DNA of 34,028 nucleotides. It comes from Candidatus Latescibacterota bacterium (GTDB taxonomy: Bacteria > Krumholzibacteriota > Krumholzibacteriia > Krumholzibacteriales > Krumholzibacteriaceae). The stretch lies in the NCBI GenBank assembly GCA_019038625.1, contig JAHOYU010000198.1, forward strand, positions 1 through 34,028, in the 5' to 3' direction. Below, piece after piece: positions 1,898-27,594 of the stretch (position 1 is its first letter; each line of letters begins with the position of its first letter). The notes below the pieces were generated by a model, which did no database searches, was not told the DNA's origin, and saw only the letters and a program-made list of their open reading frames with translations. The translations under genes and the position numbers were made by a program.

Positions 1898-4666
1898 TCA
1901 GTCCGGCTCGTCATCGAAAAAGGAAAGCTGCCCGGAACCACTATTCCTGTCTTTCTGGGAAGGCTGCCTGTGCTTGAAGAAATCACCTGCCCTTGCGTGT
2001 TTTTCATAAAAAGCGAGTGTCACATCCTTCAATTCGGAGTGTGTGGTCATCAGAAAATCAAACAAGCCAGAGTCAATAAGGTCATTCACTGAATCCATAG
2101 CCAGCTTGTGAGAAAGCCTCTCCATGAAATCGACAAGATTTCCGAAAGGTCCATTATTCTCTCTTTCATCCAGGATGACAGCCAATTGCTCGTCGCCGAG
2201 TCCTCCCGATTCGTTCAGGGGCGACCTTATACCCCCAGGCACTATCTCGTACTGCAACCCGCTTGAATTTATATCGGGCGAAAATACTTCCTTGTTGATA
2301 CCTGCAAGGTAATCGAGGTAGCTCTTCTGCCTCTCTTTCGTGTCACCTGTATTATTCAGAAGTCCGGCAAAATACTCATCGTGATGATTTGCCTTGAGCC
2401 AGGCTGTCCGGTAGCTTATGTAAGCCTGGGCGCAGCTGAAGGCTCTGTCGTAAGTAAATCCTGTGTTATGCAGGAGGAAATCGAAGATCTTCTGAGCATC
2501 CTCCTCATTTATCTCCTTCTCCATAGCTCCTCTTATAAAATCCAGCCTTGCCCCGAGTAACGAACCTGCCTCCTTCTTCGAAACAGCTATTTCGATTCTC
2601 TCCGCGCGTTCCCCGGTTATACCGGCTGAGTCCTTGAGTATCTCCCTTATCTGTTGTTTGAAAAGAAGCAGCCCACTGGTACTCTCCAACGCTCCTGAAA
2701 GCGAATGATGTGGAAGCAGCACTTTCCCTTTCTTTCCAGCGTTTTCCAGATACTTCTGCCACAGCCTTCCTTCCAACGGTGCCGGCCTGTACAATGAGAT
2801 CACGTTGACGAGTCCCTCGAAATCCATGGGCTGGGTCTTCATCAGCAGATCCCTTATCCCCCTGCTTTCCAGAAGATATACACCGGTGGTGTCTCCCCGG
2901 GATATCATCTCGTAAGTCGTCGTATCATCGAGAGTGGGAGGCATCCCGACAGAGGGGCTCCTTTCCTTTTCTCCATCATCGTCGCCACCACCATCAAACC
3001 CCAGCATATGGAAGGTGTCGTCGAGAGCGGCAAGAAAATGAGAGCGCTGGACAACTACCGTCCAGCCGCCAATAGCCTTAATCGCCCTACTATCTACCAT
3101 ACAGAACTCTTCCCCGTTACTACCTGTGATGCAGGCCAGATAATCCTCCATCTTCTCGGGCAATACTACGACTCTGGAAGTGTTCAGATTGAAATGATGC
3201 ACTCTTCCCCTGAGAGATTCAGCCCCGCGAAGAATCATTCTCACTTCATTATTACCGTTATACATCCTTGCAAGCTGATCCGAATTGTCGAGCAGGTCCT
3301 GAAGTGAATCCTTCTTCCTCACCGAGGACAGTGCCTCAGAGATCGCTTTGCTGGTCTCATCCGCCAGGTCAGAGTGTTCCATTATCGTCTTGACCAACGT
3401 GACAAGCGACATCTCCTCCCGTACCACCTGGTTGAATACACCGCTTTTCGGAAGCATAGACTTCAGGGCAAGCATAAAGACTTCTCTCGCGCCCTTCGGT
3501 TTGATCAATTCCAGCTGCGGTGGTACACCCTTCCCCGGCGCGTTGAACGATTCGAATAACAGGCCGTGCTCGACAGGATTGAGAGGAATTATATCAAGCA
3601 GAAAGGCTACAAGACTGTCGAGGATCTCGCTGCCTATGATCTCCAGCCTGACACCTCTTCTGCGGAACCCGTCCAGAAGTTTTCTCAGAAACAGGATAAA
3701 CCCGGACAGATCCTCTCGCCCCGCACTTTTTATCTCATCCTGCATCATCGTCCTGAGTTCCGCGATCTCATCCTTTCTCCTGTTGTGAAAGGCAAGAAGG
3801 AATCTTCTGTCACTCATCTCGGCAAGTGTTTTCTCAGAATCCTTGTCTGAGCTGAATTCTATCCTGTCTTCCATGAGAAGGTCGAATTCACATCTCCCGG
3901 CGATCCTTCCTGATTCTTCCAGAGCATCTGAATATCCGTAGAAAAACGGGTCGAGTTCTTTCTTCCTCTTCAGAAAATATTCCGGGTGATTTTCCTCTGT
4001 ATCATACTCATTCGTATCGCCCGAGATCTTCCTGAGAGTGGAATATGCAGACGCATCCTCTCTCAAAGCAAACCTGTCATTATTCGTTGTTACCAGCGCC
4101 ACTCCCATTTTTCTTGAGAGAATGCTGAACTGCTCTATGATAAACTGCTCTTTTTCCACGTTGTGATTCATGATCTCAAGAAAGACGTTCCCACTGCCGT
4201 ATATCGTTACGAGTTTATCGACGACCGCTCTCTCCCTTGGCAGATTTCCGTGCAATACGGCCTGGCTGGTCTCGCCTTTCAGACAGCCGGTCAGAGCTAT
4301 CAATCCCTCCCTGTGAAGGACCAGTTCCTGCTCCGTGACATATTCCAGCTTTTCTTTCTCGTGATGTTTTTGTATCAGGTCAATGATATTCCTGTAACCT
4401 CTGTCGTTTTCCGCCAGAAGAGTCAGATGGTATGTCCCGCTGTTACCCGTCAGGGAGAGATGCCTGATCTCAACGCCGAATATAGCTTTGATTCCCGCTA
4501 TTTTCGCTTCATTCGCGAATTCATAATGTCCGATCGCCGTCCATTTATCTGTGAGGGCTACCGCATCCATTCCAAGAAATGCCGCCCTTGAAATGATCTC
4601 GGTCGGAGTAAACATTCCTGAATACGCACTGTTTATACTGTGGACATGCAGTGGAACGTAGGGCAT
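1898..4666 (-). CDS. DnaE-like PHP/polymerase III alpha homologue lacking catalytic Asp residues
   Basis: A 922-residue relative of the DNA polymerase III alpha subunit, shorter than DnaE (about 1160) or DnaE2/ImuC (about 1050). The N-terminal PHP domain is recognisable (HVHSINSAYSG at 7-17, LTDK at 38-41, GVE at 64-66, GLIALTGCLKGE at 121-132), but the usual LTDH His is Lys and NDVHY reads NNDRF. The palm region aligns by SLVAFLLDIIPLNPVEHGLL (351-370), yet the invariant PDIDIDF that holds two catalytic Asp is PQLELIK (383-389), the GSAAGS motif is lost and no DFLG with the third Asp is found. The fingers region is well kept (YLLESRGIRDLL, SLYRPAPLEG, FKQQ). A C-terminal HhH segment and QLSFF near the end resemble DnaE and a clamp-binding motif; no OB fold is visible. 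ATG 4666 follows GGGGAG. Likely a non-polymerising paralogue; role unknown. No imuA/imuB neighbours. Confidence 0.85.
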   Translation of the reverse strand: MPYVPLHVHSINSAYSGMFTPTEIISRAAFLGMDAVALTDKWTAIGHYEFANEAKIAGIKAIFGVEIRHLSLTGNSGTYHLTLLAENDRGYRNIIDLIQKHHEKEKLEYVTEQELVLHREGLIALTGCLKGETSQAVLHGNLPRERAVVDKLVTIYGSGNVFLEIMNHNVEKEQFIIEQFSILSRKMGVALVTTNNDRFALREDASAYSTLRKISGDTNEYDTEENHPEYFLKRKKELDPFFYGYSDALEESGRIAGRCEFDLLMEDRIEFSSDKDSEKTLAEMSDRRFLLAFHNRRKDEIAELRTMMQDEIKSAGREDLSGFILFLRKLLDGFRRRGVRLEIIGSEILDSLVAFLLDIIPLNPVEHGLLFESFNAPGKGVPPQLELIKPKGAREVFMLALKSMLPKSGVFNQVVREEMSLVTLVKTIMEHSDLADETSKAISEALSSVRKKDSLQDLLDNSDQLARMYNGNNEVRMILRGAESLRGRVHHFNLNTSRVVVLPEKMEDYLACITGSNGEEFCMVDSRAIKAIGGWTVVVQRSHFLAALDDTFHMLGFDGGGDDDGEKERSPSVGMPPTLDDTTTYEMISRGDTTGVYLLESRGIRDLLMKTQPMDFEGLVNVISLYRPAPLEGRLWQKYLENAGKKGKVLLPHHSLSGALESTSGLLLFKQQIREILKDSAGITGERAERIEIAVSKKEAGSLLGARLDFIRGAMEKEINEEDAQKIFDFLLHNTGFTYDRAFSCAQAYISYRTAWLKANHHDEYFAGLLNNTGDTKERQKSYLDYLAGINKEVFSPDINSSGLQYEIVPGGIRSPLNESGGLGDEQLAVILDERENNGPFGNLVDFMERLSHKLAMDSVNDLIDSGLFDFLMTTHSELKDVTLAFYEKHARAGDFFKHRQPSQKDRNSGSGQLSFFDDEPD

Positions 4667-4844: not shown

Positions 4845-6143
4845 ATGAGTTCACAGGAAAATAAGACAAATATTCTTAAAGATGAAAATGAACGCCTGAA
4901 GGCGGCGATCGAAGAACTTTCGATCCTTAACGATATATCTACCGCTATCAACTCGACTCTTTCCCTCGAAGAGATCATTGAACTGATCGTAAAGAAGTGC
5001 GTAAAACATATCGGTGCCGAACAGGGAACAGTCACGCTCCTTGACAGTATGGAACAAAAGAACCCCTTCCAGACGATGATACGTCAGGTTGACAGGTCGA
5101 GCGATTTCCTTCCTCTCCATCTGGATACTCAGATCACAGGCTGGATACTGGTCAACCGAAAACCGCTGCTCATCAACGACATGGAATCCAATGAACATGT
5201 CAGGATACCGAAGAATGAAGAAAATCCCGTAAACACCCTTTTGAGTGTACCCCTTCTCCTCAAAGGCAGAGTCATTGGATCGCTGAACCTCTTCAACAGA
5301 AACACGCCCGGTGGTTTCACGGATGCCGACAAGAGACTACTGAGCATTATCGCTACCCAGTCCGCTCAGGTGATCGAGAACGCAAGATTGATCGAAGAGG
5401 AAAAATCATTATTGCATCTCCAGGAAGAGATGAAGATGGCCTTCAAGATCCAGATGGGGCTCCTGCCCAAAGAAAAACCCGCGATCGATGGATACGATAT
5501 TGCAGGAAAAAGCATACCAGCAAAGACTGTGGGTGGCGATTACTACGATTTCATAATGGCAGGAGACGGCAGGATTATGATCTGCCTTGGAGATGTATCC
5601 GGAAAAGGGATGCCCGCGGCACTTCTGATGTCGAATCTCCAGGCTACTTTCCGTGGACAGGACCTCAGCAGACATACACCCTGTGAGATCATGAGCAGGT
5701 CCAACAAACTACTGTTCAGAAGTACAGATCCCGACAAATTCGCCACATTCTTTTTCGGCCTTCTTGACAATACCAGACATGAATTTCACTACTGCAATGC
5801 TGGCCATAACAATCCTATTCTGACGCACAAGAATGGGGATCACTACTTCCTGGATACCGGAGGGCTTATACTTGGAGCCCTGGAGGAATCCACGTATACT
5901 GACACTATAATATCACTCGCAGTCGGCGATACACTCCTTGTTTTTTCCGATGGCATCTCCGAAGCCAGGAATCCTTCGGATGAAGAGTATTGCGAGGAGA
6001 GAATACTCGAAGTCCTCACCAAAAACCCTCATCTCGATGCCGCCGGGATAGTCGACCACATTATCAATGAAGTAAATACCTTCGCCGATTCAAGAGATCA
6101 AATGGACGACATGACCGTAGTCGCGATGAAGAGACTTTTCTGA
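4845..6143 (+). CDS. GAF domain plus SpoIIE/PP2C-type serine phosphatase
   Basis: A 432-residue cytosolic signalling phosphatase of the RsbU/SpoIIE type. ATG 4845 follows GGAG at 7 bases. Residues 5-30 form a short coiled coil; a GAF sensor spans about 30-185 (ILNDISTAINSTLSLEEII ... LLSVPLLLKGRVIGSLNLF); a helical linker leads to the PPM domain at about 205-432. Metal-binding motifs are intact: GGDYYDF (230-236), GDVSGKGMPAALLM (249-262), NAGHNNP, FSDGISEA and DDMTVVAMK. The enzyme should dephosphorylate Ser/Thr, classically an anti-sigma-factor antagonist, but no STAS or RsbW-like gene is nearby. The next gene on the same strand is a Ser/Thr kinase, a natural counterpart. Confidence 0.93.
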   Translation: MSSQENKTNILKDENERLKAAIEELSILNDISTAINSTLSLEEIIELIVKKCVKHIGAEQGTVTLLDSMEQKNPFQTMIRQVDRSSDFLPLHLDTQITGWILVNRKPLLINDMESNEHVRIPKNEENPVNTLLSVPLLLKGRVIGSLNLFNRNTPGGFTDADKRLLSIIATQSAQVIENARLIEEEKSLLHLQEEMKMAFKIQMGLLPKEKPAIDGYDIAGKSIPAKTVGGDYYDFIMAGDGRIMICLGDVSGKGMPAALLMSNLQATFRGQDLSRHTPCEIMSRSNKLLFRSTDPDKFATFFFGLLDNTRHEFHYCNAGHNNPILTHKNGDHYFLDTGGLILGALEESTYTDTIISLAVGDTLLVFSDGISEARNPSDEEYCEERILEVLTKNPHLDAAGIVDHIINEVNTFADSRDQMDDMTVVAMKRLF

Positions 6144-6231
6144 CGGCCGGATCACGACCACCATTCGACATTATAATTATCACAGAAATCCAGGAAAAAC
6201 GCGATAGCACGATAAAAGGACAACTGATTCC

Positions 6232-6260
6232 TTGATAATAATCTCGTTTTGTGTCAAAAT
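6232..6260 (+). promoter_or_regulatory. Possible promoter of the kinase gene
   Basis: TTGATA (6232-6237), a 17-base spacer and CAAAAT (6255-6260) stand 42 bases before the kinase ATG. The -10 is weak. The 159-base gap between phosphatase and kinase leaves room for separate transcription; no terminator is evident in it. Confidence 0.3.
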
Positions 6261-6302
6261 TCGGTTACCTGCTAAGGCATACTTCAAACAAAAGGAAAAT
6301 CG

Positions 6303-8645
6303 ATGATAGGGAGTACGATATCCCATTATAGAATCGTCGAAAAAATAGGTGAGGGCGGAATGGGTGTGGTCTACAAGGCTCAGGACACCCGCCTCGAACG
6401 TGATGTCGCACTCAAATTCATTCATCCCTCCCGTATCTCGTCCGCACGTGACAGAGCTTGTTTCGCGAGGGAAGCACGCTCTGCGGCTGCACTCGATCAT
6501 CAGAATATATGCGCGATCCATGAGATCGAGGAATTCAGAGGCCGGACCTTCATCGTGATGGCTTATTGCGAAGGCGTACCCCTCAGCGATATGACTGCCG
6601 GACACCACTTCACCCTTGAACAGGCTCTCGGAGTAATGCGTCAGATACTGGAGGGGCTTAGTTCCGCGCACGATAAGGGAATCATACACAGGGACATCAA
6701 GCCATCCAACATCGTCGTCGAACCTGAGAAGCTGAAAGTCAGGATCACCGACTTTGGTCTTGCCAGGGAAATCAGCGCGGCCTCATCTGCAACAATGGCC
6801 GGACATTCAGGAACGCTGGAATACGCTTCGCCGGAACAGGTAACCGACGGAACAGCTGATACGAGAAGTGATGTATGGGCGTCAGGTGTCACATTCTATG
6901 AACTCATTGCTGGCAGGCGGCCTTTTGAGGGAGAATACGCAGCATCCATCATATACAATATCCTTAATTCTGAACCGGACCTCTCCACCTTTCCACATGG
7001 CCCGGCGGGCGATGCCGCCATAAATATCATATCGAGAAGCCTGGAAAAGAACCCAGACAGCCGATACCATGATGCTGGTGAGATGTTGAACGATCTCAAT
7101 GCTGCATACGACCTTCTGGATGACGAAGACAGGCATGTTCACATTCATCCGACCCCTTCGAATAAGATCCCGGCAGCCTGGACCCTTGTTATCGTTGTCC
7201 TCGCGATCATTGCTGTCCCGCTTATCCTATGGATACTTTCCGGCTCTTCCTTTACTCCTGACAGTCATCCTCTCGGTACCATAGATACGACCGGCACGAT
7301 ACTGTCCGAAGCAGATATTATCTTCGAGAGAGGAAAGGCCACTTACGACGGTGGTGATCAAACAACAGGAATCACCCTGATCGAGCAATGCATCATGATG
7401 GATCCCGATCACATAGAAGCTCTCAAGACCCTTGCTGCTTACTACAACGCCAGCGGCGACTCGAAGAAAGCAGCCGACTATATCGACAGGGCAAAGAAGA
7501 TCGCTATTGGCAAGGGTAATTCTATAGATCTGCTTAAGTGTAATATTGTAGAGGCATACGTATGGCACGACTGGAACATGGCAGTAAGAAACCTGAACTC
7601 GCTTCTTGAAGAAAAGCCGAACGACATCAGGGGGCATCTCAATCTCGGATACATAATGTCACGGTATCTCAGACAGTTCGATGAAGCCATCATACATTTC
7701 AGAACAGCCCTGGACCTGGACCCGAAGAACGATCTTGGAATGAACGGATCTGCCTGGAACTACATCGGAAACGCTCTTCTCTTCTCCGGAAGGCCCGAGG
7801 AATCTATCAAGGCATTCCGGAAATACGGTGAACTGGCTACAGGGTCACCTGATCCCGTTAACAGCCTCGCAACTGCCTTTTATTTTTCAGGCAATTTCCA
7901 TGAAGCTGTCCGGATTACAGGAAACGCGATTAAGGAAAACCGTCATAATTTCAAATTCTTCGAAGTACTTGGCAGATCCTGCCTGTCTCTTGGTCAGTGG
8001 GAAAGGGCCGTTGATTCTCTTAACAGATACATTGGCGCGTCTCCATCCCAGGGATACAAGGCGGCTGGCCATGTCCACCTGGCCCGACTTTATCTCGCAC
8101 AACGTGATAGAAGAGCATTCGACCGAGAAATAGAAAGTCTTCTCTCGATATCACCAGGCTCACTTAAAGCGAGGTGGCTCTCTGGCCTTGCTTGCGTCCG
8201 ACTTGATAACGATACAGCCGCAGCAGTAAATTATCTGGAAGAAATGCGCACCATCATGACTGACCCTTTTGTCTTTAACGGAATCCCGTGCACGAAGCAT
8301 CTCGAGGGAATCATACTTCTCGCGGAAGGCAGTCTTGAGGAAGCCATCGAAAAACTTGAGGCTGCCGAATTCGCCTCGCCGAGAGAGTTTTTCTATTTCG
8401 GCAAGGAACTGATCCGTGGACTGATCGAGATAGGTCGGATAGATCGAGCAGAAGAAAAAGGCACCGACCTTCTTTCTCTCAATAGTAATGATTATGAATT
8501 GCTGATCCTCATGAACAGCATCTATCTGAAAAAGGGAGAAAATGGAATTGCGTCTCAATACAAGGAACGTGTATTGAAGGTCCTTGAGAATAGCGATCCC
8601 GGATTCTTCCCACTTAATGATTTCATATCTAAATCCGGACTTTGA
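6303..8645 (+). CDS. Membrane-anchored Ser/Thr protein kinase with TPR repeats
   Basis: A 780-residue Hanks-type kinase. ATG 6303 follows AAAGGAAAATCG. The N-terminal kinase domain (about 9-270) has all core motifs: glycine loop IGEGGMGVVYKA (15-26), ATP Lys38 in VALKF, HRDIKPSN (129-136), DFG (150-152), SPEQ (176-179) and SDVWASG. A single membrane helix at about 292-312 puts the kinase inside and the C-terminal 450 residues in the periplasm. That half is a run of TPR-like helices (for example YIGNALLFSGRPEESIKAF) from about 340 to 765. The layout is common in bacteria with many PknB-like kinases; the TPR part probably senses or binds envelope partners. It follows a PP2C-type phosphatase and may act on the same targets. 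Confidence 0.94.
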   Translation: MIGSTISHYRIVEKIGEGGMGVVYKAQDTRLERDVALKFIHPSRISSARDRACFAREARSAAALDHQNICAIHEIEEFRGRTFIVMAYCEGVPLSDMTAGHHFTLEQALGVMRQILEGLSSAHDKGIIHRDIKPSNIVVEPEKLKVRITDFGLAREISAASSATMAGHSGTLEYASPEQVTDGTADTRSDVWASGVTFYELIAGRRPFEGEYAASIIYNILNSEPDLSTFPHGPAGDAAINIISRSLEKNPDSRYHDAGEMLNDLNAAYDLLDDEDRHVHIHPTPSNKIPAAWTLVIVVLAIIAVPLILWILSGSSFTPDSHPLGTIDTTGTILSEADIIFERGKATYDGGDQTTGITLIEQCIMMDPDHIEALKTLAAYYNASGDSKKAADYIDRAKKIAIGKGNSIDLLKCNIVEAYVWHDWNMAVRNLNSLLEEKPNDIRGHLNLGYIMSRYLRQFDEAIIHFRTALDLDPKNDLGMNGSAWNYIGNALLFSGRPEESIKAFRKYGELATGSPDPVNSLATAFYFSGNFHEAVRITGNAIKENRHNFKFFEVLGRSCLSLGQWERAVDSLNRYIGASPSQGYKAAGHVHLARLYLAQRDRRAFDREIESLLSISPGSLKARWLSGLACVRLDNDTAAAVNYLEEMRTIMTDPFVFNGIPCTKHLEGIILLAEGSLEEAIEKLEAAEFASPREFFYFGKELIRGLIEIGRIDRAEEKGTDLLSLNSNDYELLILMNSIYLKKGENGIASQYKERVLKVLENSDPGFFPLNDFISKSGL

Positions 8646-9888: not shown

Positions 9889-12579
9889 TCACTCGACTGA
9901 CGGGTCCGGAAGAAGCAATCCGTTCAGAAGTAGTTTGTAACATCCGGCTGTCGATGCCCTGAACTGGGGATTGAATCCATAGAGGACCAGCTGCCCCTTG
10001 TTCTTGCGGAACCAGACAAGGGCAGCGTGCCCTCCCGCTTCCTCAAGTTTTTCAGCATATCCACTCACGAGGATATCACTTTCCGGGATCCTGCCCACTA
10101 CCCGTCTGTCCATATCAAAGGCGGGGATGGAAGTTGCGAACACCGGTCTCCCACGAAAAAACACGTTTACCTTCTTCCCCATACCCAGACTTAATAGATG
10201 GTCGGTCGCCAGATCTATTCTCACCAGCGAGCCCGGGCAATACAACCCCTTTTCCTTCAAACGTTTCGAAATATCGTTGAAGGGAAGAGTGAATTCGTCA
10301 CCGTTGTCCTTCTCCTCGGATAGAGCTAACTCTCCGCTGAACAATCCCGCCGATCTTCCCCATGCTAAAACAGTCCCGCCGGAATCGATGAACCTGAGCA
10401 GTTTCTCTTTTCCCTTTTTCCCCATACCTTTTGTATAACCCGGCGGATAACCACTCGAATAATATCTCTCTCCTGACTTGTATTTACCTGTCATCAGGAC
10501 AGATTCATCAGTGTCCGGTATAAGGATAACGTCAAATTTTCCGGCCAGGTCCCTGTCCTCCAGCTCACCGGGCCGTAGAACCTTAAAGGGTATACCGTAG
10601 TCGTCTAAAAGATACCTGGTCCATCCTGCGTCCATGTCGTGCCGGAAAGTCTCTACCAGGCCTGTCCGAGGTATTGTGAGCTTCGTCAGCGAATCCTCTC
10701 CCGGAATCATATCTTCTCCGGTAAGACATAGCGGCTGAACGCTGAGACCATCATTCAGTAAAGCAAGCTTTTCCCCATTTCCACTGACCAGGAAACTACC
10801 CTTTTCAAATACGGCCGGTCCGGCTTCGAAATCCTCGTCCAGCCTGAATACCGACAGCCCACGTTCCGCGGCTTTGAAAACAGCCTTAAAACTCTCGTTA
10901 TATCTCACGTTGAGCAGGACATGCCTGATATTTTGATCTTCCGGCCTGCTATAAAGTCCATCGATCCTGAACCGGCCCTCGATCTCACTCATCGAAGTCT
11001 CAATACCAGGTTCTCTTTTATCTATCCTGAACGAAGTCACTCCCCTGTGAAGAGGCAATGACCATGAAGTGATATCATAAGGTTTGATGATCTCTCCACC
11101 CGGAGTATAGTGCCTTACCGGAAATTGCTGACGTTCCATCACTTCCTTGATAAAAGCTCTGAAGGGTTGAGCCAGGGGGACCACTATATCGCCCCTTTGA
11201 ATAATAGTTCCTTCACCTGTCAGGATATCATCTTTAGTCTCATATACTTTTACACCATGCTCCTTCAGCAGATCGACGATATGGCAGAGTTCACCCAGGT
11301 CACGCTGCCTCTCGATTCCCGATGGCATCACGAAATAGAAAGGAGGCTCTGTCTTTCCCTTCTCTACCTCTATTTGGCAGATATTATTTCTGAACCGGAG
11401 AATATCCTTTCGGTGATTCGAAGCGGTCCTGATTATCGACATCGTCGAACTTATCTCATAATCAACGATATCGGAGAGTCGCCACCATCCTCCCTCCCAC
11501 GGCTGCGGCATGTTGGTACCTTTCTTGTATTCGGAAAGTCCTTTTCCATGGACACGCAGTTCTCCCGGTTCCACGTAGACCGGTTTTGCATATTGCGCAC
11601 TGGCGCTTTCGGTGAGAAATCCGATCACGTTCTTCCATATACAAGTCTCCGTAGATCCGGGCCAGTAGTCGTCGAACAGGTACTGGCGGGTCACACCCGA
11701 ACAACCGTCAGCGGTCATATCCTTCATAAGGTTCGATCCGAATATACCGATCCAGTTCCAGAGGGAAGCATCAATGTTCTGTGCTATCGGATCATGGTTG
11801 GGCGGCACGAAATAGCGTACACCGCTCGATCCCATCTGGTGCTTCTCGACCATTACCTGTGGAAACCACTCATGGCTGAATAATCTCGATACAGCTTTCG
11901 TATCCATTTGTGTCAAAGTCACAAAATCGCGATTATTGTCATGGCCGACATATTTATGATAGATGCCGGGCATCCTCGAGCCCTCGAATCTGGTTCCCTT
12001 GTACTCCATGTAATGATGGACGACCATATCCATCCCGTCAGGATTGTGGCAGGGGACAAACATGTAGACGACTTCGTCCAGCGACTTGATCTTTGATGAG
12101 ATATCAGTCGTAACGAGATCATACGCTATCAGGGGGGCAGATTGAGAAGGTCCGACTTCGCTTGAATGCATCGAAAGCGTAGCGACGAAGAACACCCTGC
12201 CATCATCTATCATCTGTTCAAGTTCTGATTGGGGGATATCCTGTTCAAGAGCGAGTCTTTTATTGATTATTTTCAATTCATCGAGTCGCCCGATATTTTC
12301 CTCCGATGATATGAAGACGACAAAAATCGTCCTTCCCATCGGAGAGATTCCGATCTCCCTCATCTCCATCATCGGAGAAGCCTGATCCAGTAGCCCAAGA
12401 TATTCGATCAACTGATCATAGTCGAAGAGTTCTCCATCAGCCCCAGGCTTAAAACCGAAGAATTCTTCAGGGCTTGTAAATCCCCCGGCCACAGCCTGCC
12501 CGCCTGAAAAACATCCGAGTAGTGATAAACCCAATACAATGACTATGATCCTTTTGAGATAATATACAGAGATGAGCAT
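9889..12579 (-). CDS. Secreted M14-family zinc carboxypeptidase, lipoprotein
   Basis: An 896-residue exported peptidase. ATG 12579 follows GAGGAGGAAAGG. The signal peptide ends in LLGC (Cys23), a lipobox. The M14 catalytic domain occupies about 50-400: zinc ligands His138 and Glu141 in MHSSE, NPDGMD (179-184), NNRDF (215-219) and the third ligand His247 in EKHQMG. The long C-terminal half (about 400-890) is not a standard carboxypeptidase part; it includes a class I amidotransferase-like alpha/beta stretch (KFDVILIPDTDE, then GGTVLAWGRSAGLFSGEL) seen in other large M14 proteins. The enzyme should trim peptides in the periplasm or at the cell surface. The downstream TonB gene is co-oriented but has its own promoter. 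Confidence 0.88.
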   Translation of the reverse strand: MLISVYYLKRIIVIVLGLSLLGCFSGGQAVAGGFTSPEEFFGFKPGADGELFDYDQLIEYLGLLDQASPMMEMREIGISPMGRTIFVVFISSEENIGRLDELKIINKRLALEQDIPQSELEQMIDDGRVFFVATLSMHSSEVGPSQSAPLIAYDLVTTDISSKIKSLDEVVYMFVPCHNPDGMDMVVHHYMEYKGTRFEGSRMPGIYHKYVGHDNNRDFVTLTQMDTKAVSRLFSHEWFPQVMVEKHQMGSSGVRYFVPPNHDPIAQNIDASLWNWIGIFGSNLMKDMTADGCSGVTRQYLFDDYWPGSTETCIWKNVIGFLTESASAQYAKPVYVEPGELRVHGKGLSEYKKGTNMPQPWEGGWWRLSDIVDYEISSTMSIIRTASNHRKDILRFRNNICQIEVEKGKTEPPFYFVMPSGIERQRDLGELCHIVDLLKEHGVKVYETKDDILTGEGTIIQRGDIVVPLAQPFRAFIKEVMERQQFPVRHYTPGGEIIKPYDITSWSLPLHRGVTSFRIDKREPGIETSMSEIEGRFRIDGLYSRPEDQNIRHVLLNVRYNESFKAVFKAAERGLSVFRLDEDFEAGPAVFEKGSFLVSGNGEKLALLNDGLSVQPLCLTGEDMIPGEDSLTKLTIPRTGLVETFRHDMDAGWTRYLLDDYGIPFKVLRPGELEDRDLAGKFDVILIPDTDESVLMTGKYKSGERYYSSGYPPGYTKGMGKKGKEKLLRFIDSGGTVLAWGRSAGLFSGELALSEEKDNGDEFTLPFNDISKRLKEKGLYCPGSLVRIDLATDHLLSLGMGKKVNVFFRGRPVFATSIPAFDMDRRVVGRIPESDILVSGYAEKLEEAGGHAALVWFRKNKGQLVLYGFNPQFRASTAGCYKLLLNGLLLPDPSVE

Positions 12580-22156: not shown

Positions 22157-25108
22157 TCAGTTCCAGACACCATCCATAAGTCTTCTGACAGTAATATATG
22201 CGTTGTCTGTACTCTCGATAAACATGTTGTAGAGTATTTTCGCCGCTTCAGGTGTATTCTCCATTCCGAAAGATTCAGCGACTGCTCCCATAGAGTCCAT
22301 TTCTATCTCGTCCTGTGCTGCTACCTTGAGACGATATATATCTCTCAGCCTCCTGATAAAGTTCATATGCTCAATGATCATATCGAAGTCATCAGCCTTT
22401 TCCGGAGAAAGTTCCTTGAGATTCTCCAGCATCTTTCTCGAAAGAGGATCTCTGAGCCTGTGCCTCGCCTTATAAATGAGAAGAAGCATCTCGATATCCC
22501 TCTGCCCCCCGGGACACTCCTTGATGTTCGTGCGCACGGAGGCGTCAGTACTGGAATGTCTCCCCATCGTTTCCTGATAGAGATAATCAACAAATTCTCT
22601 GTTTCTCTCGAAGATCAGCGGCTCGACTATAGTCTTCATCAGTTTCTTGTCAAGTTTACGCGTGCCGGTCAACATCCTTGACCCGAGTATCTGTGAAAGG
22701 TCGACGTAGACGTTATCGCTCGTGCCCGACAAGTGATCGACCAACTGTTCGAAACTCACCAGATAACTTCCGAAATGGTCGGCGAAACGGTGATGAGGAA
22801 GTATTCCACGTTTGAGGATGTGAAAATTCATCTTCGCGACGATCCTGTTGCAGAGTGTGATCGTCTCTGCGTCACTTGAATCGAGGATAAAGAACATATC
22901 GTAATCATCGTCGAACCCCTGTTCCCTGGCATGTCCTCCCGCCGCATACATGGCCAGCAGATCGTGAGTCTGGACCGGATAACCATGCGCCATATGGACG
23001 TCCTGCATCGCAAACTCATAGAGAAGTTGAGTATATCTGTCACTGAACTCTATAAATTCTGCATCGGTTCGTTCACTGCCTGCTCCTGACAGCACCAGCA
23101 GGCTGACTCTTACGAATTCCATATCGTAGTAATCCCCGACACGCTTGAAGAGGATATCCAGAGGCTCCAGCGAAGTCAGGTCGCTGTACAGACCGTCACT
23201 TATTTCCCGGAGGCGTTCATTGTTGTAAAGATTCTTTATAAATACGGGGTACTTGCTCAATATAGGATGGAAATGCCTTCGAAAGAAATGACTGCTCTGC
23301 CTGTGGATATTCGTCAGGGCCACAAGTTGACCGTGGTATTTCGCTGTATCCGGCAGTACAGGTTTCTTCCTTATGATAGCCATGAAATTCTCCAGCTGCT
23401 TCCAGCTCAGATTCGCCAGGAAATTATTCAGGATCACCGGGTGTGAGACGGAAACCACCGAGAGAGAGTCTGATGCATCCGGCAGTTCCCCCAACTCATT
23501 TATCATCAGACTACTGAGAAATCCGAACAGTTCCCTTCCCTCATCGGTCTCCGACCTCTTCGCGAGGATCGTTAGGAATTTCAGGATCGGCGCGGGATCA
23601 TGCTGTATCCCGGAGACATAGACAGATCCCACTCTTCTGCGCATCTTTTTATGCAGCATCGCGAACGATCTGATGAATTCGCTGTAGAACTCCCCAGAGG
23701 GGTCGTCCAGTTCATCAAGAAAATCGTCCCAGTATGTGATGTTCGCGGAAAAGAACGATTTCTTTATGAAATCGACAGCGAGATTCCCATTGTAATCCGG
23801 ATCAGAATGAATCTTTCCCGACAGTATCGGCCGAAGGACACTGACATCTTTCAGGTGCTTTCTCAGATCTCCAGTAAGGATGTCTATCGCGTCTACACTT
23901 TTTTCCAGAAACCGGTAATAAAGGACCAGCATGAAATCCTCTGCAGGCACCATGCCTCTGTCTTCGAATCCGATCATTCGCGCGATACCGGCTACCATAG
24001 CCTCGACAGGCTCCTCCCTGATGGCGATTTCCTCATCCTGAGCCACCAGTAACTGATAGAGGTGTCGGAAAAGTTCGAAAAAACTCAGGGTCTTCTCAAT
24101 GTCGTCATACTGTTCCTTTCGCCAGGTATCTTTTATCCTCAATTCATCCAGGATCTCCCACGCGTTGACCTTTTCGATACCATGAACCAGTTTCAGAGCG
24201 GACAGTAGCCCCCTGATAGGTCGCAATCCGTCTTCCTTCGGATTGATCGAGTAAGTTGAAAGAGGCCTTGAGAGTACCGAGCGGATCTCCCCCAGAATCC
24301 CACGAAGAAACCCCTCATGAAAACGATTCTGCCTGTTGTGGCTGTCGAAGAAAAACCTGTCTGTGACTCTTTCCCTGAACTCTTCGTGAAGATTCTTGCT
24401 GCCAAGGATGGTAGCTGCCCCGATCATCTCGTTAACCATGATGAAATCGTAGGCGTTCTTGTCGAGGACTTCTTCATACTCCTCTATTGTGGCAGTAAGG
24501 CTTTTACTTCCAACATATTCTGACAGATGAAAATGAAGCCTGGTGGCAGTCTTGAACATCTGGTTCGAAAGCTTTCCCAGCGCCCTGTTCAACGCTTCAG
24601 GATCCTCACCACTCCGCCTCACGATCCCAAGATCTATATCGTCCTGGTCAGATTTTGTGCCCACACCGAGCATTACGAATTCGGGATAAGAGATATCCTC
24701 GAGGAAGATACTCAATAGACCGTGCATATAACTCCTGGTAAGCTGCCTGAACATGCGGCCCACCTCAAGCATGAATTTTCTGCTTGTATGATCCCTCACT
24801 GTGCTTGTCGCCAGTTCAAGTTTTACAAGATCGACCATCCTGAGGTTCATATGCAGGAATTGCAGGGCATAATAGCAACCAAGCATTTCGAGGGCCTCGT
24901 CCTTCGATCGAGCGGATTTCCGAACTACATCCATTTCACCTGGAATATCCACGGAATAGCTCCACAGATGTACCCTGTCCCGCACACCCTCTCTCTCAAG
25001 CGCGGATAGCAACGAATCGATACTGGATGAGACCATGTGGATATATTTGAGATTGTAATTGCCGAGATTCGCCGTCTTTTCGGCAAGCCTCGCGAGAGGT
25101 TGTTTCAT
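22157..25108 (-). CDS. Large protein with two GlnD/GlnE-like nucleotidyltransferase modules
   Basis: A 983-residue protein with two nucleotidyltransferase heads. Module 1 has GVGTKSDQDDID (148-159) and, after a helical part, NPKEDGLRPIRGLLSALKLV (289-308). Module 2 has GGHAREQGFDDDYDMFFI (724-741), and NIKECPGGQRDIEMLLLIYK (861-880) is close to the GlnD segment NIKxxPGGLRDI. The tandem heads and length recall GlnE (adenylyltransferase for glutamine synthetase), while the KExxGG-R-I motif recalls GlnD. Neither the ACT nor the HD domain of GlnD is seen. Module 1 keeps DDxD but has a worn PGG motif. The ATG at 25108 overlaps the korC stop by 4 bases (ATGA), so translation is coupled. Target unknown; I infer a regulatory NMP transferase. 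Confidence 0.75.
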   Translation of the reverse strand: MKQPLARLAEKTANLGNYNLKYIHMVSSSIDSLLSALEREGVRDRVHLWSYSVDIPGEMDVVRKSARSKDEALEMLGCYYALQFLHMNLRMVDLVKLELATSTVRDHTSRKFMLEVGRMFRQLTRSYMHGLLSIFLEDISYPEFVMLGVGTKSDQDDIDLGIVRRSGEDPEALNRALGKLSNQMFKTATRLHFHLSEYVGSKSLTATIEEYEEVLDKNAYDFIMVNEMIGAATILGSKNLHEEFRERVTDRFFFDSHNRQNRFHEGFLRGILGEIRSVLSRPLSTYSINPKEDGLRPIRGLLSALKLVHGIEKVNAWEILDELRIKDTWRKEQYDDIEKTLSFFELFRHLYQLLVAQDEEIAIREEPVEAMVAGIARMIGFEDRGMVPAEDFMLVLYYRFLEKSVDAIDILTGDLRKHLKDVSVLRPILSGKIHSDPDYNGNLAVDFIKKSFFSANITYWDDFLDELDDPSGEFYSEFIRSFAMLHKKMRRRVGSVYVSGIQHDPAPILKFLTILAKRSETDEGRELFGFLSSLMINELGELPDASDSLSVVSVSHPVILNNFLANLSWKQLENFMAIIRKKPVLPDTAKYHGQLVALTNIHRQSSHFFRRHFHPILSKYPVFIKNLYNNERLREISDGLYSDLTSLEPLDILFKRVGDYYDMEFVRVSLLVLSGAGSERTDAEFIEFSDRYTQLLYEFAMQDVHMAHGYPVQTHDLLAMYAAGGHAREQGFDDDYDMFFILDSSDAETITLCNRIVAKMNFHILKRGILPHHRFADHFGSYLVSFEQLVDHLSGTSDNVYVDLSQILGSRMLTGTRKLDKKLMKTIVEPLIFERNREFVDYLYQETMGRHSSTDASVRTNIKECPGGQRDIEMLLLIYKARHRLRDPLSRKMLENLKELSPEKADDFDMIIEHMNFIRRLRDIYRLKVAAQDEIEMDSMGAVAESFGMENTPEAAKILYNMFIESTDNAYITVRRLMDGVWN

Positions 25109-25686
25109 CTGTCCTCGTCCCTGTCACGTTTGTTCAGACACTGGATGTCTCTGCCTTCAAGAAGCCCGAACCCGTATTCAAAGGAAGCCAGGTATTCCTC
25201 TTCCAGTTTTTTCGGAGCCCTGCTCACGATTGCATCCTGTAACGATTTTCTGCTGATGACGTTACATGCCGAGGCAAATATTCCAAGGATTATGATATTC
25301 GTCTGAGCGTTTTTCAGGTCCTGCCCGGTATCGATGCATAGTCTCACCTTCTGCTCGAGTCTGCCATGAACCCTGTCGTCTGTTTCGATCTCCTCATCTA
25401 TGACAAGCAGCCCACCTGGTTTAAGATCGCATATATAGGCATCATACGCATCGGGAGTGAGGGCAAGCAGAAAATCGACCAGTTCCACGCGGGGCGAATC
25501 GATGGCGCGGTCTGAAAGGATAAGGTCCGCCCGACAGGTGTTCCCCCTGGCCTCCGGCCCAAAAGAACAGCTCTCGGATGCATAAAGGTCTTCATATATC
25601 GCTGCTGCTTCCGCAAGTACCCTGGCAGCATCGATCAACCCGTGAGCTCCGGCTCCACTCAGCCTGATATCGTATCTAAACGACAC
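25105..25686 (-). CDS. korC: 2-oxoacid:ferredoxin oxidoreductase gamma subunit
   Basis: A 193-residue KorC/PorC-type subunit. The frame opens to 25968, but GTG 25686 has AAGGAGG at 6-7 bases and begins at the conserved FRYDIRLSGAGAHGLIDAA. Other family marks are CSFGPEARGNTCRADLILS (40-58, usually SYGPEARGG), VDFLLALTPDAYD and the hydrophobic DLKPGGLLVID. It normally pairs with KorA and KorB to oxidise 2-oxoglutarate or other 2-oxoacids to acyl-CoA while reducing ferredoxin; no korA, korB or ferredoxin gene is here. The downstream gene is a nucleotidyltransferase overlapping it by ATGA. A weak promoter-like TTGTAA-17-TATCGT lies upstream. Confidence 0.85.
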   Translation of the reverse strand: MSFRYDIRLSGAGAHGLIDAARVLAEAAAIYEDLYASESCSFGPEARGNTCRADLILSDRAIDSPRVELVDFLLALTPDAYDAYICDLKPGGLLVIDEEIETDDRVHGRLEQKVRLCIDTGQDLKNAQTNIIILGIFASACNVISRKSLQDAIVSRAPKKLEEEYLASFEYGFGLLEGRDIQCLNKRDRDEDR

Positions 25687-25816: not shown

Positions 25817-26443
25817 TCAGCCATCAGGAACAGCAAAAGACTGAACATCGATCTGCACGAACTGTCCATCGAACGGATCGGGATACGGAGGAACTCCGGA
25901 AACGATGATAGGGTTTCCCTGGTCATCCATATTCTTTGTCGATAACCCGTCACCACCCGAACCTGCATAAAGGGTTATCGTTGCTGAATGGTCCATCAGA
26001 ATGGTTTTCTGAATATCCATCAGAAAACAATGATCTATTCCGGATGATCCCGCGTTTAAATAGTAAATCTGGAAAGGAGAGGATATCTGTATCCTGAATA
26101 TATTGAAGGAGCTTTCGGCCGGTGTGCCCCCTGCGATCCACATCTCGTCCTTCATGATCCAGCCTGTATATGTCCTCTGCTCTACAAGCCCACGAAGCCT
26201 TATCGTCACCTCGTAAGTGACTCCCTCGTCCCCGACAAGCGTGGCAGATACTTCGTCAGATTCAGGGGTGGTGCAGTTGGCCTGGGCATTACCATCGCCG
26301 GTGCAGGGTAACTCTACCCGGATATCATCGAGCGAGGCTATCGGGTCACTCCCTGTAATGTTCTCATCCGAACTACAACCGACCATAAGCAGAATACATC
26401 CGATGCAGCAGCCACAGGCGAAAATAATCGAGAATCTTCTCAC
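25817..26443 (-). CDS. Lipoprotein of unknown function
   Basis: A 208-residue exported lipoprotein. GTG 26443 is 6 bases after GGGAGG. The signal peptide ends in LLMVGC with the acylated Cys at 23, followed by SSDEN (Asp near +2/+3). The mature region has an Asp-rich start and beta-strand sequence (TYEVTIRLRGLVEQRTYTGWI), ending YPDPFDGQFVQIDVQSF. Not recognised as a family. It precedes korC by 130 bases on the same strand; whether they share a transcript is unclear. Confidence 0.75.
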   Translation of the reverse strand: MRRFSIIFACGCCIGCILLMVGCSSDENITGSDPIASLDDIRVELPCTGDGNAQANCTTPESDEVSATLVGDEGVTYEVTIRLRGLVEQRTYTGWIMKDEMWIAGGTPAESSFNIFRIQISSPFQIYYLNAGSSGIDHCFLMDIQKTILMDHSATITLYAGSGGDGLSTKNMDDQGNPIIVSGVPPYPDPFDGQFVQIDVQSFAVPDG

Positions 26444-26514: not shown

Positions 26515-27594
26515 TCAAAGTTCCAACCAGCAATCATCTTTGTTGAGTTTCTTACGGAACAGTTTTCCTGCAAGAAGCTTGTCTTTAGCCTGATGATATT
26601 TGAAATATATATGATCATCAAGACGACCGACAATCTCGATTTTACCAGTCTCATGCGACATGACAAATCGAAATCTCTTGCTGGGTCCATCAAGCATCGC
26701 CCTCGTCTCTTCTACGATCTCAAGAGCTCTGAATAATGGGATCTGGTAGATATGTTTTACTGTTTTTACGGGGCGACATTGAAAGACATAGTATGGAGTG
26801 ACGCCGTTCCTTGTCAGCTTACTCTGTAATTCAGCCAGGACTGCAGGTTTATCATTGACCCCCTTCAACAGGACGGTCTGATTCAGAACTGTCATATTTG
26901 CGTCATTCAATATTTTTATAGCTTTTACAGCGCGTGGAGTGATCTCTTTCGGATGATCAAATTGCGTTACAATGTATAACTGCTTTCTTTCGCGAGAACA
27001 ATCTCCCAAAATATTCAACAGTTCATCGTCCTCTATTATTCTGTCAGGATCGACTACGGGGATCCGTGTTCCTATTCGAATAAACTTCAAATGCTGAATG
27101 CCTGCTAATTTCTGTAAAATATCTGCTATTTCGTCATTCGGTAATGTTAATGGATCACCTCCGCTTAAAAGTACGTTTGTGATCTCCTTGTGCGTTTCAA
27201 GATATTCAACTACCAGATTCCAGTCTGTTACTATCTCATCCGATACTATACCTGCTAATCTTTTCCTGAAACAGTGGCGACAATACGACGCGCATTGATT
27301 TGTAGCCAATATCAGGGCTGTCTGGGAATACTTGTGCTGCAGGCCACGCAATTTGGTGTTATCAGATTCTCCACTTGTATCATAACTTCCCTCTGACCTG
27401 TTTTCTTCTATAGAAGGAATCACCATTCTGCGGATAGGATCATCCGGATCGTCCCAGTCAATCAGGTCCATATAATATTGGTTAAGTGACATCGGATGAC
27501 TTTTAATGATCTTTTCGATCTCATTTCGTTCATCAGGATTAAACGAAACATATTGTTCGAGTTGTTCTATCGTTCTTATATTTTTAACATCCAT
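26515..27594 (-). CDS. KamA-family radical SAM protein, substrate residues changed
   Basis: A 359-residue relative of lysine 2,3-aminomutase. ATG 27594 begins a canonical N-terminus. The radical SAM cluster motif is Cys101-x3-Cys105-x2-Cys108 (CASYCRHCF), followed by VLLSGGDPLTLP. PLP may bind the Lys of TGKIEIVG near the C-terminus, equivalent to GGGKIP. The substrate region YYLYQCD, whose Asp binds the lysine side-chain amine in KamA, reads YYVFQCRPV here, so the substrate is probably not lysine. It is also unlike EpmB (QLD). The gene and its surroundings are AT-richer than the flanks, suggesting acquisition by transfer. Function unknown beyond a radical-based rearrangement of an amino acid or similar. 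Confidence 0.85.
   Translation of the reverse strand: MDVKNIRTIEQLEQYVSFNPDERNEIEKIIKSHPMSLNQYYMDLIDWDDPDDPIRRMVIPSIEENRSEGSYDTSGESDNTKLRGLQHKYSQTALILATNQCASYCRHCFRKRLAGIVSDEIVTDWNLVVEYLETHKEITNVLLSGGDPLTLPNDEIADILQKLAGIQHLKFIRIGTRIPVVDPDRIIEDDELLNILGDCSRERKQLYIVTQFDHPKEITPRAVKAIKILNDANMTVLNQTVLLKGVNDKPAVLAELQSKLTRNGVTPYYVFQCRPVKTVKHIYQIPLFRALEIVEETRAMLDGPSKRFRFVMSHETGKIEIVGRLDDHIYFKYHQAKDKLLAGKLFRKKLNKDDCWLEL

Follow-up and report, generated by a model that had tools for sequence, protein, structure and literature searches.

The window, that is, the whole 34,028-nucleotide stretch of DNA analysed here, is contig C198 of genome G000 (genomes are labelled G and loci L, each with a number). On its reverse strand lie two overlapping genes (Table 1), one coding for a double nucleotidyltransferase and the other, immediately upstream, for a gamma subunit of 2-oxoacid or 2-oxoglutarate:ferredoxin oxidoreductase (KOR). 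We refer to the former product as the KOR-linked NTase, to the genomes that encode a double NTase of this 983-residue type as carriers, and to the diverged gamma subunit as KorC'. The end of korC' (25105) overlaps the start of the NTase gene as ATGA, as an earlier sequence-only reading had described. The limits of 22157–25686 that it gave to the pair are likewise correct, since the NTase reading frame runs from 22157 and the GTG start of korC' at 25686 is preceded by AAGGAGG. Neither korA nor korB was found within the window, so that korC' is not in one operon with them here; a complete korABC set is located on another contig (C41) of the same genome.

Table 1. Features of the korC'–NTase gene pair in the window.
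Feature	Position	Strand	Basis or remark
korC', diverged second gamma subunit of 2-oxoacid:ferredoxin oxidoreductase	25105..25686	(-)	GTG start, PF01558
KOR-linked double NTase, 983 aa from ATG	22157..25108	(-)	ORF and profile matches; homologues in 27 genomes
N-terminal head motif VGTKSDQDDID, residues 149-159	24632..24664	(-)	G150, T151 and D154-D159 invariant
Central helical region, residues 431-590	23339..23818	(-)	fastest evolving part, dN/dS 0.15
C-terminal head motif GGHAREQGFDDDYD, residues 724-737	22898..22939	(-)	aligns to GlnD GGYGRxEL..SDVD
GlnD_UR_UTase-like helical domain of the C-half, with NIKECPGGQRDIE	22238..22576	(-)	profile match

In the NTase, two nucleotidyltransferase heads occur in tandem, and a helical domain resembling GlnD_UR_UTase comes after each of them. 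Comparison with Pfam profiles yielded a match to PF08335 (GlnD_UR_UTase) in the C-half (6e-15) and a weak, below-cut-off match to DUF294_C in the N-half (0.0064); no match to HD or ACT domains was found in the 983 residues, and none to the GlnE domain PF03710 at an E-value of 0.1. Together with the motifs in both heads, these results bear out the double-headed architecture without HD and ACT domains that had been read from the sequence. The motifs G-T-x-x-D-Q-D-D-I-D (residues 150–159) and G-G-x-A-R-E-Q-x-x-D-D-D-Y-D (residues 724–737) are unchanged in ten homologues with identities down to 36%. The C-half has both features of the GlnD/GlnE-type superfamily, a G-G...D-x-D head and a GGxRD helical domain, and its head keeps the GG...DxD arrangement; in the N-half, the glycine loop is shorter than that of the GG...D-x-D heads of GlnD and GlnE, so that the N-terminal head may be inactive.

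Profiles of the two halves align with each other (hhalign, 98%, 8e-14). The C-half profile also aligns with the N-terminal module of GlnD (2e-12), including the KExxGGxRD motif, and with GlnE-N (1e-7); the N-half profile aligns weakly with GlnE-N (6.5e-5). An AlphaFold model of the full NTase, built from a four-row alignment, had a pLDDT of 73.6 with weakly modelled heads, and the N-half modelled alone had a mean pLDDT of 57.8, too low for a fold comparison. The sole significant fold match of the full model in the PDB was the N-terminal domain of GlnE (1v4a, E-value 2.4e-6, TMt 0.71). Comparison with a same-genus genome gave dN/dS values of 0.07 for the NTase and 0.08 for korC', which indicates strong purifying selection; constraint is about equal in the two heads and weaker in the middle region.

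The korC' product consists of a POR domain (PF01558, 9e-19) with the SxGPExRG motif preserved, as in a gamma subunit, and the closest solved structure to its profile is that of the gamma subunit 3on3 (3e-54). The orphan KorC' copies form one diverged clade (support 100/99), apart from the gamma subunits encoded in the operons of G033 and G095. In the Zixibacteria-labelled phylum, 17 of the 18 carriers and none of the 114 non-carriers (best score, 182 bits) matched the KorC' profile at 238 bits or more; this profile was built from carriers, and copies that were left out of it (G001, G015 and G104) still scored at least 238 bits. In the window's phylum, such scores were likewise confined to carriers. 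An ordinary korC is kept elsewhere in carrier genomes. Relative to canonical KorC, the changes G21A, K22R, Q38E and S80A (numbered from the GTG start) are fixed in KorC', and N165Y is found in 18 of the 20 copies, the operon gamma subunits of G033 and G095 having Asn at this position. No strictly invariant tyrosine that could act as an acceptor was found in KorC', the near-conserved Tyr165 being the only candidate. KorC' evolves fast, and in the window lineage, which has a long branch, the GGQG loop has changed to GAHG. With regard to the coupling of korC to the NTase described in the sequence-only reading, the partner is, with the exception of G033 and G095, a diverged extra KorC' and not the gamma subunit of a catalytic operon.

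Analysis of the phylogenetic distribution showed the NTase to be encoded in 27 of the 220 genomes searched, which represent three phyla. Carriers account for 8 of the 80 genomes of Krumholzibacteria, the phylum of the window, 18 of the 132 genomes of the Zixibacteria-labelled phylum (that of locus L010) and one of the eight genomes of the Eisenbacteria-labelled phylum (that of L011). The window NTase is 60% identical to a Zixibacteria-labelled homologue and only 39% identical to the homologue from G033, a member of its own class, so that the gene has likely been transferred between lineages. The NTase frame of G104 (L025, G104:C262, 549–3488) contains two in-frame TAG codons and may represent a decayed gene, an assembly error or a case of recoding.

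A gamma-subunit gene is located directly upstream of the NTase gene, on the same strand, in 23 of the 26 assessable loci from two phyla (the remaining locus, in G094, is truncated at the end of its contig). The exceptions are G005, G011 and G081, in the last of which the NTase gene lies behind hdr genes. The ATGA overlap was found only in G000, G001 and G007; at the other loci the two genes are separated by gaps of 12–250 bp, and in G095 by a gap of 762 bp that contains one ORF. The product of this intervening ORF (L064, 9621–10373, reverse strand) is 250 aa long and has an NTase-like stretch, IIGAFSLLIRG..WDLDLLF, with no Pfam match. In G033 and G095, all of korDABC precedes the NTase gene on its own strand. 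In Zixibacteria-labelled genomes, the usual arrangement, also found in G007, starts with hdrC-hdrB, continues with NTase-korC' on the opposite strand and ends with a divergent korDABC-hdrA-mvhD-hdrC-hdrA cluster. Many NTase loci lie within such KOR and heterodisulfide reductase (HDR) clusters, and genes for isocitrate dehydrogenase (icd) and aconitase adjoin the pair in G009 and G015. The co-occurrence of korC with the NTase is thus conserved across phyla and, together with the matching presence and absence of KorC' and carriers, rules out a chance neighbourhood. The NTase is paired with an extra gamma subunit in two and probably three phyla.

KorA and KorB of the KOR operon match models of the 2-oxoglutarate type well; KorB scores 343.5 bits, the cut-off being 364, which makes 2-oxoglutarate a likely, though not a certain, substrate. 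Clusters in which kor and heterodisulfide reductase genes are intermingled have been described in tubeworm symbionts and Chromatiaceae (PMC6315080). The korABCD-hdrABC clusters of those bacteria share this arrangement with the loci studied here, but the words 'nucleotidyltransferase' and 'uridylyl' are absent from the main text of that paper. The window genome has no close KOR-linked HdrA, and HDR is therefore dispensable as a partner.

The classical example of a central metabolic enzyme switched by a two-headed nucleotidyltransferase is glutamine synthetase with GlnE, GlnD and PII. The KOR-linked NTase resembles GlnE in having two tandem modules of NTase and GlnD_UR_UTase domains, a length of about 950–1000 aa and no HD or ACT domain. 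Nevertheless, in a tree of the separate halves, the N- and C-halves of the KOR-linked NTase formed one clade (99/96), distinct from the clade of GlnE halves (100/98) and from that of GlnD (97/96). This tree has long branches, includes only six GlnE proteins and contains flagged E. coli rows, and is therefore good, but not final, evidence that the KOR-linked NTase belongs to neither of the two. It seems that the double head evolved on two occasions, here by a separate duplication of a GlnD-type module in parallel to GlnE. Further differences are the missing PF03710 match and a location next to kor rather than gln genes, with regard to GlnE, and the second head and the lack of HD and ACT domains, with regard to GlnD. 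The kor neighbourhood is conserved and the phylogenetic position lies outside GlnE, so that neither of the two findings that would have spoken against the sequence-only reading was obtained.

Genuine GlnD and GlnE are encoded besides the KOR-linked NTase in G005, G007 and G033, whereas none were seen in seven other carriers (G000, G001, G009, G011, G015, G080 and G081), where PF08335 is confined to the KOR-linked NTase. Among the 16 carriers tested, PII is present in G007 and G033 only; it was not found in the other 14, which include the window genome and single-contig carriers, and an action of GlnD type on PII was rejected on these grounds. Carriers without GlnE have glutamine synthetases that lack the adenylylation motif NLYDLPP; their site reads NVFEMSN, NIFNMSS, NLDTMPK and the like. 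The motif is seen only in genomes with GlnE, as NIYDMPP or NIYDLPP; in carriers without GlnE, a tyrosine occupies this column only in one glutamine synthetase each of G000, G009, G011 and G015, without the motif. These sites and the tree of halves led us to reject an action of GlnE type on glutamine synthetase. The KOR-linked NTase thus occurs independently of GlnE, PII and the glutamine synthetase adenylylation site, and the link to nitrogen control proposed in the sequence-only reading finds no support in the PII and glutamine synthetase data.

We suggest that korC' and the NTase gene together encode a module dedicated to the regulation of 2-oxoglutarate:ferredoxin oxidoreductase, in which a GlnE-like reversible NTase would have KorC' as its docking partner or substrate; we put this tentatively, at a little below an even chance. 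The NTase would be a two-headed protein nucleotidyltransferase that arose when a GlnD-type module was duplicated independently, with one head attaching a nucleotide (AMP or UMP) to an acceptor residue of the KOR complex and the opposing head removing it, and with KOR activity changing as a result. KorC' would either bring the NTase to KOR or itself be the subunit that is modified or that senses, a role played by PII with GlnD and GlnE. Such a module is consistent with the upstream gamma-subunit gene in 23 of 26 loci, the korDABC-NTase order in G033 and G095, the restriction of KorC' to carriers, the recurring block of hdrC-hdrB, NTase-korC' and korDABC-hdrA-mvhD-hdrC, the fold match to GlnE-N, the equal constraint on both heads and the icd and aconitase neighbours. 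Against it count the three exceptional loci, the lack of a strictly invariant tyrosine in KorC', the fast evolution of KorC' with its altered GGQG loop, the short loop of the N-terminal head and, in the window genome, the missing close HdrA and the placement of korABC on another contig.

The regulatory module could also work with KorC' as the switch proper, an additional, PII-like subunit to which the NTase attaches a nucleotide and whose state determines whether it associates with the KorAB complex, substituting for the usual gamma subunit, or dissociates from it. Its near-obligate pairing with the NTase, its separate clade, the four fixed substitutions with N165Y in most copies and the retention of an ordinary korC would fit this role, yet in G033 and G095 a complete operon supplies its ordinary gamma subunit as the partner, and KorC' has no strictly invariant acceptor tyrosine and does not adjoin the NTase in G005 and G011; we consider this role unlikely. 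Slightly less probable is an NTase devoid of transfer activity that serves as a nucleotide-sensing scaffold for the assembly of KOR with heterodisulfide reductase or ferredoxin: the invariant acidic motifs of both heads, the GG...DxD arrangement of the C-head and the strong constraint on both heads argue against the loss of activity that the short, poorly modelled loop of the N-head and the clustering with HDR genes might suggest. The NTase might instead make a small nucleotidylated compound or modify a protein other than KOR, with the pairing reflecting no more than co-regulation with 2-oxoglutarate metabolism. The weak DUF294-type matches (a family with no known substrate) and the lack of adjacent korAB in the window lineage point in this direction, but the near-obligate partner is one protein, KorC', rather than pathway genes in general, which leaves this option more doubtful again. 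Finally, a disguised GlnE or GlnD, adenylylating glutamine synthetase or uridylylating PII with an incidental kor linkage, would have the same architecture and a GlnE-like fold and would suit the seven carriers that lack other GlnD and GlnE, but is very improbable in view of the canonical pair in three carriers, the rarity of PII, the glutamine synthetase sites and the grouping of the two halves outside GlnE and GlnD.

Returning to the regulatory module of KOR, its most specific form would be a two-headed NTase that evolved in parallel to GlnE and, by way of a pseudo-gamma subunit devoted to this task, both adds a nucleotide to KOR and takes it off again. The flow of carbon and low-potential electrons at 2-oxoglutarate would thereby come under reversible control, in bacteria most of which lack PII; this we hold somewhat more tentatively than the general proposal. 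If it is true, the same kind of switch as that of glutamine synthetase and GlnE was invented separately for a carbon and electron branch point, and the NTase and KorC' are a concrete protein pair on which this can be tested in uncultured anaerobes. HepT/MntA provides a precedent for a nucleotidyltransferase whose adenylylation target is encoded by its partner gene (PMC7641770). That HEPN/MNT system is likewise a two-gene module with a protein target, which for korC'-NTase is a proposed one; it differs in that the target of MntA, an antitoxin, is a toxin with RNase activity (PMC7641770), whereas korC'-NTase combines two heads with a subunit of a metabolic enzyme. The KOR-HDR linkage (PMC6315080) and the modification of a two-gene-module partner by an NTase (PMC7641770) have therefore been described already. 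For a nucleotidyltransferase tied to KOR, we found no account in the open-access papers searched, in agreement with the earlier suggestion that the system is undescribed.

Several other genes of the window deserve mention. Upstream of korC' and on the same strand lies a KamA-family radical SAM gene, and between the two is a 208-aa lipoprotein-like ORF that is absent from this place in the same-genus genome (L012); these two upstream ORFs occupy 25817–26443 and 26515–27594. A DnaE-like protein (1898–4666) has only 922 aa and scores just below the cut-off of the polc model; it is a truncated or variant DNA polymerase III alpha subunit. An 896-aa ORF without an NCBIfam match occupies 9889–12579 on the reverse strand. 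In the region 4845–8645, a gene for a phosphatase-like regulator with RssB/SpoIIE-type matches precedes one for a Ser/Thr kinase that has TPR-type repeats. Part of a large protein encoded at L014 (10887–14171) and L015 (12552–16028) resembles this phosphatase-like regulator; its gene is divergent from korC' and is followed by the icd and aconitase genes.
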